In this document: positions 21,605 to 24,743 of the stretch, piece by piece
Layout: each line of letters starts with the position of its first letter
How positions within the stretch are numbered: the stretch's first letter is position 1
Assembly: GCA_029855935.1 (NCBI GenBank)
Contig: JAGSHN010000005.1
Span: 1-64,000 of the forward strand
DNA length: 64,000 nt
Direction of reading: 5' to 3'
Origin: Candidatus Thorarchaeota archaeon
GTDB lineage: Archaea; Asgardarchaeota; Thorarchaeia; Thorarchaeales; Thorarchaeaceae
Program-made: the position numbers and the translations under genes
The notes under the pieces: model-generated
What the model saw: only the letters and a program-made list of their open reading frames with translations
What the model was told of the DNA's origin: nothing
Database searches by the model: none

Positions 21605-21652
21605 CCCGACAGCCCCCGGAGCTACTTGAAGAGGGCCCGTTGCCTAGTCTGG

Positions 21653-21681
21653 ACCCGTACGGAATACCGTATGAGGGAAAG
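21653..21681 (+). other. tRNA-Arg intron 1 (D loop, 29 nt)
   Basis: The inner helix GTACGG/CCGTAT with an AATA loop, bulges GGA and AGA at the two junctions and a short TCT/GGA central helix fit a relaxed bulge-helix-bulge. Removal yields D loop AGTCTGGATA. Confidence 0.8.
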
Positions 21682-21700
21682 ATAGGGCGCTAGCCTTCTA

Positions 21701-21729
21701 TGGAGCCGTCCGATGATGGCCTCGTAGAC
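21701..21729 (+). other. tRNA-Arg intron 2 (position 37/38, 29 nt)
   Basis: Central pairing of 21695-21698 with 21724-21727 (3 of 4 pairs), bulges at 21699-21701 and 21728-21730, and an inner stem closed by CGAT give a bulge-helix-bulge at the standard archaeal position. Confidence 0.85.
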
Positions 21730-21782
21730 AGTTAGAGATCGCCGGTTCAAATCCGGCCGGGCCCGCCACCTCTCGCGCATCC

Positions 21783-24503: not shown

Positions 24504-24604
24504 CAAGACCAGCGAGGCATCTCGCTACACGTTTCATAAAGCTTTGGAGAGATGTTCGACTTGCCCGTGAAGATGGCCCTCGTGATACCCTCAGATGATA
24601 ATAG

Positions 24605-24613
24605 TTTTATAGA
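24605..24613 (+). promoter_or_regulatory. TATA-like box of tRNA-Thr
   Basis: TTTTATAGA is centred about 31 nt upstream of the tRNA-Thr 5' end. Confidence 0.5.
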
Positions 24614-24639: not shown

Positions 24640-24743
24640 GCCTCGGTGGCCTAGTGGTTACGGCGCCTGCCTCGTAAGCAGGCGATCGCGGGTTCGAAAT
24701 GATCTGTTGGACGCAGAGCACGAGACTCCCGCCCGGGGCTCCA
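24640..24743 (+). tRNA. tRNA-Thr (CGT) with a T-loop intron
   Basis: Acceptor GCCTCGG/CCGGGGC, anticodon stem CCTGC/GCAGG with loop CTCGTAA (anticodon CGT), discriminator T as usual for archaeal tRNA-Thr, and encoded CCA. The T stem GCGGG (ending 24692) meets its partner CCCGC only at 24728-24732, so 28 nt interrupt the T loop. Removing 24699-24726 gives TTCGAAT and a 76-nt tRNA. Confidence 0.93.
24699..24726 (+). other. tRNA-Thr T-loop intron (28 nt)
   Basis: The fold is a near-perfect bulge-helix-bulge: outer helix is the T stem itself, central helix TTCG/CGAG, bulge 1 AAA, bulge 2 ACT, inner helix TGATCTG/CAGAGCA with one A-G mismatch. Cuts after the second bulge base restore loop TTCGAAT. 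Confidence 0.88.

Follow-up and report, generated by a model that had tools for sequence, protein, structure and literature searches.

Within the window, by which we mean the whole stretch of 64,000 nucleotides that was analyzed, a gene for tRNA-Thr(CGT) is interrupted in its T loop by 28 nt. This raises the question whether the gene is functional and its transcript is spliced, or whether the insertion has destroyed it. The gene occupies positions 24640-24743 of the forward strand, including an encoded CCA (24741-24743), and direct reading gave the layout GCCTCGG TG GCC..GGC G CCTGC CTCGTAA GCAGG CGATC GCGGG TTCGAA-ATGATCTGTTGGACGCAGAGCACGAGAC-T CCCGC CCGGGGC T CCA, with the anticodon CGT at 24673-24675. 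The 5' exon (24640-24698) comprises tRNA positions 1-59 and is conserved in Thorarchaeota relatives. It is followed by the insert (24699-24726) and by the 3' exon (24727-24743), which runs from position 60 to the CCA. Thus, TTCGAA represents positions 54-59 and the T behind the insert is position 60. Excision restores the T loop sequence TTCGAAT, and ARAGORN accepted the spliced form as a tRNA. An insertion between positions 59 and 60 places the intron in a listed non-canonical class of archaeal tRNA introns (Yoshihisa 2014, PMC4090602). Rich sources of non-canonical introns are, according to that review, the Crenarchaeota and the Nanoarchaeota.

The structure of the T arm was analyzed with RNAfold. 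The T stem forms the outer helix, in which 24688-24692 pairs with 24728-24732. The exon strand TTCG (24693-24696) and the intron strand CGAG (24721-24724) form a central helix of 4 bp with one U.G wobble. On opposite strands, this helix is flanked by two 3-nt bulges, AAA (24697-24699) and ACT (24725-24727). The inner helix within the intron is formed by 24700-24706 and 24714-24720, contains an A.G mismatch (24702/24718), and was also supported by the comparison with homologues. The predicted fold is therefore an almost ideal strict hBHBh' motif, having a 4-bp central helix, 3-nt bulges on opposite strands and a helix on each side; the wobble and the mismatch are its departures from a perfect bulge-helix-bulge (BHB). 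In this, the preliminary description, which had assigned the T stem, the central helix and both bulges from the letters, was right base for base. When the T arm was folded alone, the minimum-energy fold was exactly this structure, unprompted. The minimum-energy fold of the whole 104-nt pre-tRNA had an identical T arm; this fold accounts for 12% of the ensemble, and in the centroid structure the central helix is open. As a control, the intron letters were shuffled with the exons fixed. As many central and inner pairs as observed were reached in 30 of 50,000 shuffles.

Based on the BHB rule and the restored T loop, cuts would be expected after 24698 and after 24726. Computational removal of the sequence between these sites, each behind the second base of its bulge, yields a canonical 76-nt tRNA (ARAGORN on the spliced form). 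The junction 24698/24727 named at the outset thus stands. The final base of the 3' bulge, position 60, is a T in 12 of 12 homologues.

We also examined how tRNA finders treat the gene, since it had been suggested that an automated annotator would probably miss it. ARAGORN reported no tRNA on the unspliced gene and tRNA-Thr (cgt) once the 28 nt were removed, which bears out the suggestion. With the Rfam tRNA model it held only by half: a weak match of 32.8 bits was obtained for 24640-24715, with a wrong 3' end. It may not extend to tRNAscan-SE 2.0, whose default search covers non-canonical introns of archaea (PMC8450103).

Conservation of the insert was tested in related genomes. The records with the closest tRNA genes mostly bear the name Candidatus Thorarchaeota; a few are labelled Lokiarchaeota or only 'archaeon'. 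The 59/60 intron was present in tRNA-Thr(CGT) of all three congeners compared and also in members of several further genera of the family. Among Thorarchaeota, 12 distinct sequences carry an intron of 28-31 nt at the same site, with inner helices that mostly differ. The same arrangement was found in independent assemblies, including Thorarchaeota B65_G9 and A399. For covariation, 11 T-loop introns were aligned, namely nine from tRNA-Thr together with those of tRNA-Asn and tRNA-Arg from the host genome. Standard pairs filled 94.9% of the cells compared with 70.9% in shuffles, 11 of 16 pairs showed two-sided changes, and the covariation score was 0.701 compared with 0.223; these values come from an alignment that leans to structure, in that hairpin loops were padded or trimmed to equal length and two Thr sequences with bulged inner helices were left out. 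None of 500 shuffles was as high on any of the three measures. In the inner helix, both partners of every pair vary among the homologues. When the 3' partners were shifted by one to three columns, pairing fell to 41-53%. An arm-swap test with seven representatives needs no gap placement but scores pairs in a fixed register, counted from the splice sites. Here, the native combination of 5' and 3' arms was the single best of 5040 permutations. The insert thus shows the compensatory structural conservation of an archaeal BHB tRNA intron, and the comparisons indicate that the intron-bearing gene is real and evolutionarily maintained.

Two further gene arrangements were seen in relatives. In G019, contig C148 (L086/L120), a truncated copy of tRNA-Thr(CGT) lies directly upstream of the intact intron-bearing copy. 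In G025, contig C100 (L113), a tRNA-Thr(TGT) seems to have arisen by duplication of tRNA-Thr(CGT) and a change of the anticodon; its T-loop intron is nearly the same.

The preliminary description had proposed a search for another tRNA-Thr(CGT), since an intact second copy, together with a lack of spliced reads at this site, would speak for a pseudogene. The host genome is a draft of 2.97 Mb in 32 contigs and is 97.3% complete. A search of this sequence with the spliced tRNA returned the gene itself, in two pieces, and weak matches, hence no second copy. A pattern combining the CGT anticodon arm and the T loop recovered the gene itself and one site unlike a tRNA. The anticodon CGT was absent from all other tRNA hits of the genome. 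As the genome is 97% complete, another copy could sit in the missing sequence. In theory, wobble pairing would allow Thr(TGT) to decode ACG, and the gene is then perhaps non-essential. Upstream of the gene, a putative BRE/TATA promoter element, GATAATAGTTTTATA, is located at 24597-24611 on the forward strand. A similar promoter-like element was found about 30-40 bp upstream in 15 of 15 sequences compared, intron-bearing as well as intron-less.

The genome encodes both the splicing endonuclease and the RtcB ligase with which BHB introns are processed. Two proteins with the domain PF01974 were detected. The putative catalytic alpha subunit (L051) matched Aeropyrum pernix EndA (3p1z/3ajv, best E 4e-47) and keeps the active-site Tyr, His and Lys in the motifs FAVY, IDHAPF and SVRKKF. 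Its crenarchaea-specific loop (CSL), GQPVGIRKPK, aligned to A. pernix EndA without gaps, and K44 of A. pernix corresponds to K51. In A. pernix EndA, the lysine of this loop is required for the broad substrate range (PMC6379350). The putative structural beta subunit (L052) lacks the catalytic His. By these features, the predicted enzyme is an (alpha beta)2 endonuclease with a CSL. It resembles that of A. pernix in combining a catalytic subunit bearing the CSL lysine with a second subunit devoid of the catalytic His. In contrast to A. pernix, the second subunit keeps its N-terminal domain according to Pfam, and the Thorarchaeota enzyme is known here from sequence alone.

By analogy to the known pathway of tRNA splicing in archaea, the precursor would be cut by the (alpha beta)2 endonuclease after the second base of each 3-nt bulge, and RtcB would join 24698 to 24727. 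The mature 76-nt tRNA-Thr(CGT) would then presumably read ACG codons. As long as the intron is present, the T loop should be unable to dock on the D loop, and splicing would thus have to precede final folding.

Taken together, the BHB, the covariation, the lack of another copy among the sequences searched, the TATA element and the genes for both endonuclease subunits and RtcB argue for a functional spliced gene rather than a pseudogene. We hold it to be very probable that the locus is a functional tRNA-Thr(CGT) gene, present as a single copy, and that its transcript contains a 28-nt archaeal BHB intron at 59/60 in the T loop, and judging from these features the precursor is almost surely spliced. 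A disrupted pseudogene, in which a chance insertion into the T loop happens to fold, would explain why the unspliced gene is not recognized by a standard tRNA finder. However, 12 distinct sequences of relatives have inserts at the same site with diverged letters and compensatory pairing, the exons are intact, the promoter-like element is conserved, and no other tRNA-Thr(CGT) was found. A pseudogene is therefore very unlikely. Decay of the exons, a further intact copy or lack of conservation of the insertion would be signs of a pseudogene; these were looked for and not observed. An artefact of assembly or binning might come to mind with a draft of 32 contigs, but recurrence of the arrangement in independent assemblies such as B65_G9 and A399 makes it hardly credible. 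Group I and group II introns are known in some tRNA and rRNA genes, and a self-splicing intron or an encoded element within the tRNA was considered as well. An insert of 28 nt leaves no room for a ribozyme or an open reading frame, and Rfam shows no intron family at the gene; this possibility can practically be dismissed. A phage origin was rejected, as no match in phages was obtained.

The origin of the intron is a separate matter. It could be a recent copy of an intron from a different tRNA in the host genome, and transposition of introns between tRNAs has reportedly been proposed for Thermoproteales. Such a mechanism would fit with the roughly five different intron sites of tRNA-Thr(CGT) within one family and with the presence of at least six T-loop introns in the host genome. 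In G025, moreover, tRNA-Thr(TGT) and tRNA-Thr(CGT) share almost the same intron, although in that genome the gene as a whole seems to have been duplicated. Against a recent copy, all congeners compared have the 59/60 intron and its sequence has diverged. Furthermore, similarity scores between the T-loop introns of the host genome were only weakly raised, and this weak resemblance is partly forced by the shared splice-site letters, which may explain it. Recent transposition is thus unlikely, and the functional gene with a maintained BHB intron remains the preferred reading.

Within one family, the intron states of tRNA-Thr(CGT), with sites assigned by eye, comprised 59/60, 59/60 together with a variable-loop intron (G014), a variable-loop intron alone, 53/54, approximately 58/59 (G007), 37/38 (G011) and no intron. 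G031 and G007, which are near neighbours on the RpoB tree, have their introns at different sites, and at least three changes of the 59/60 state were counted on this tree. A second analysis of the tree left out two fragmentary rows. A single gain of the 59/60 intron is compatible with the well-supported branches. Because the deep RpoB branches lack resolution, gains and losses are not firmly countable.

The preliminary description had called T-loop introns rare, and this proved wrong for both the host and its phylum. In the host genome, at least five other tRNAs carry one, namely Asn(GTT), Arg(TCG), Ser(GCT), Tyr(GTA) and Leu(TAA), as determined by eye and with ARAGORN on the spliced forms. Those of Ser(GCT) and Tyr(GTA) look like 58/59 introns with a longer 3' bulge. 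The tRNA-Asn(GTT) has a second intron in the variable loop, and further tRNAs of the genome were seen by eye to have introns in the D loop, the anticodon loop or the variable loop. With a covariance model of the T-arm BHB, 101 of 148 Asgard genomes yielded candidates at E <= 0.001. We checked 50 matches, of which 30 were among the best and 20 were mostly weaker; the genes used for building the model are among the 50. After splicing, ARAGORN reported a tRNA across the junction in 43 of them, compared with three when unspliced; for genes that contain more than one intron, the isotype given by ARAGORN is unsure. Of the remaining seven, several apparently carry additional introns upstream. Among non-Asgard archaea, one of 12 genomes gave a match at the same threshold. 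This was a real-looking tRNA-Leu with a T-loop intron in a Methanomicrobia bin, which may be foreign sequence.

The intron is therefore of a kind already known and an ordinary instance, common in the Asgard phylum. It shares its position, its BHB geometry and the expected processing by EndA and RtcB with the archaeal 59/60 introns listed before (PMC4090602), and differs from these in its host, Thorarchaeota, and in bulges and a central helix close to the strict motif. A report on three complete wetland Asgard genomes, Atabeyarchaeia and Freyarchaeia, describes introns in 92-95% of tRNA genes, often at non-canonical sites (PMC11291895). As far as its main text goes, these archaea resemble the Thorarchaeota in belonging to the same phylum and having many, often non-canonical, tRNA introns with several per gene, whereas the comparison there concerns three complete wetland genomes and the term 'T-loop' is absent from that text. 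An intron in the T arm of an Asgard tRNA, as here in tRNA-Thr(CGT), has also been described for a different tRNA, the tRNA-Sec of Lokiarchaeota (Mariotti 2016, as cited in PMC5330540). In literature outside most subscription journals, we found no paper joining Thorarchaeota, tRNA, introns and the splicing endonuclease.

It is an evenly balanced matter whether 59/60 in the T loop is a phylum-wide Asgard intron site shared by many tRNAs, with a structure conserved without sequence and with rapid gain, loss and relocation within a single gene. If documented, such a site would offer a large and well-sampled system of intron gain and loss outside the Thermoproteales. Tools without a model of T-loop introns count too few tRNAs in Asgard genomes, and 'missing' tRNAs can have escaped detection instead of being absent; the examples here are Thr(CGT), Asn, Arg(TCG), Tyr, Ser(GCT) and Leu(TAA). 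Since no closer relatives of eukaryotes are known than the Asgard archaea, the substrate range of their two-subunit endonuclease bears on the origin of eukaryotic tRNA splicing.

Several other tRNA genes were noted. The tRNA-Leu(TAA) with the T-loop intron (L189, G000:C17:174040-174420) was found only by the T-arm BHB model. No tRNAs for Pro(GGG) and Val(CAC) were detected in the host genome; introns may hide them. A likely tRNA-Sec with the anticodon TCA (L066, G000:C5:29230-29298) scored 14 bits with the tRNA model, which suggests that the host organism uses selenocysteine. In another Asgard family, a probable tRNA-Sec (L208, G144:C53) has two introns, one of them in the T loop, and may be compared with the Lokiarchaeota tRNA-Sec. 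Two genes in the window, both on the forward strand, were missed by ARAGORN. One is a tRNA-Phe(GAA) with a probable D-loop intron at 1483-1588 (3' end approximate), which just reached the Rfam threshold in the genome search. The other, at 21633-21768, is a tRNA-Arg(TCT) with a probable D-loop intron and an anticodon-loop intron and remained below that threshold. Finally, an identical tRNA-Ala(GGC) with near-identical short flanks lies at the start of two contigs (67-143 in the window and G000:C21:12-85), so that the two contigs probably join at this gene.
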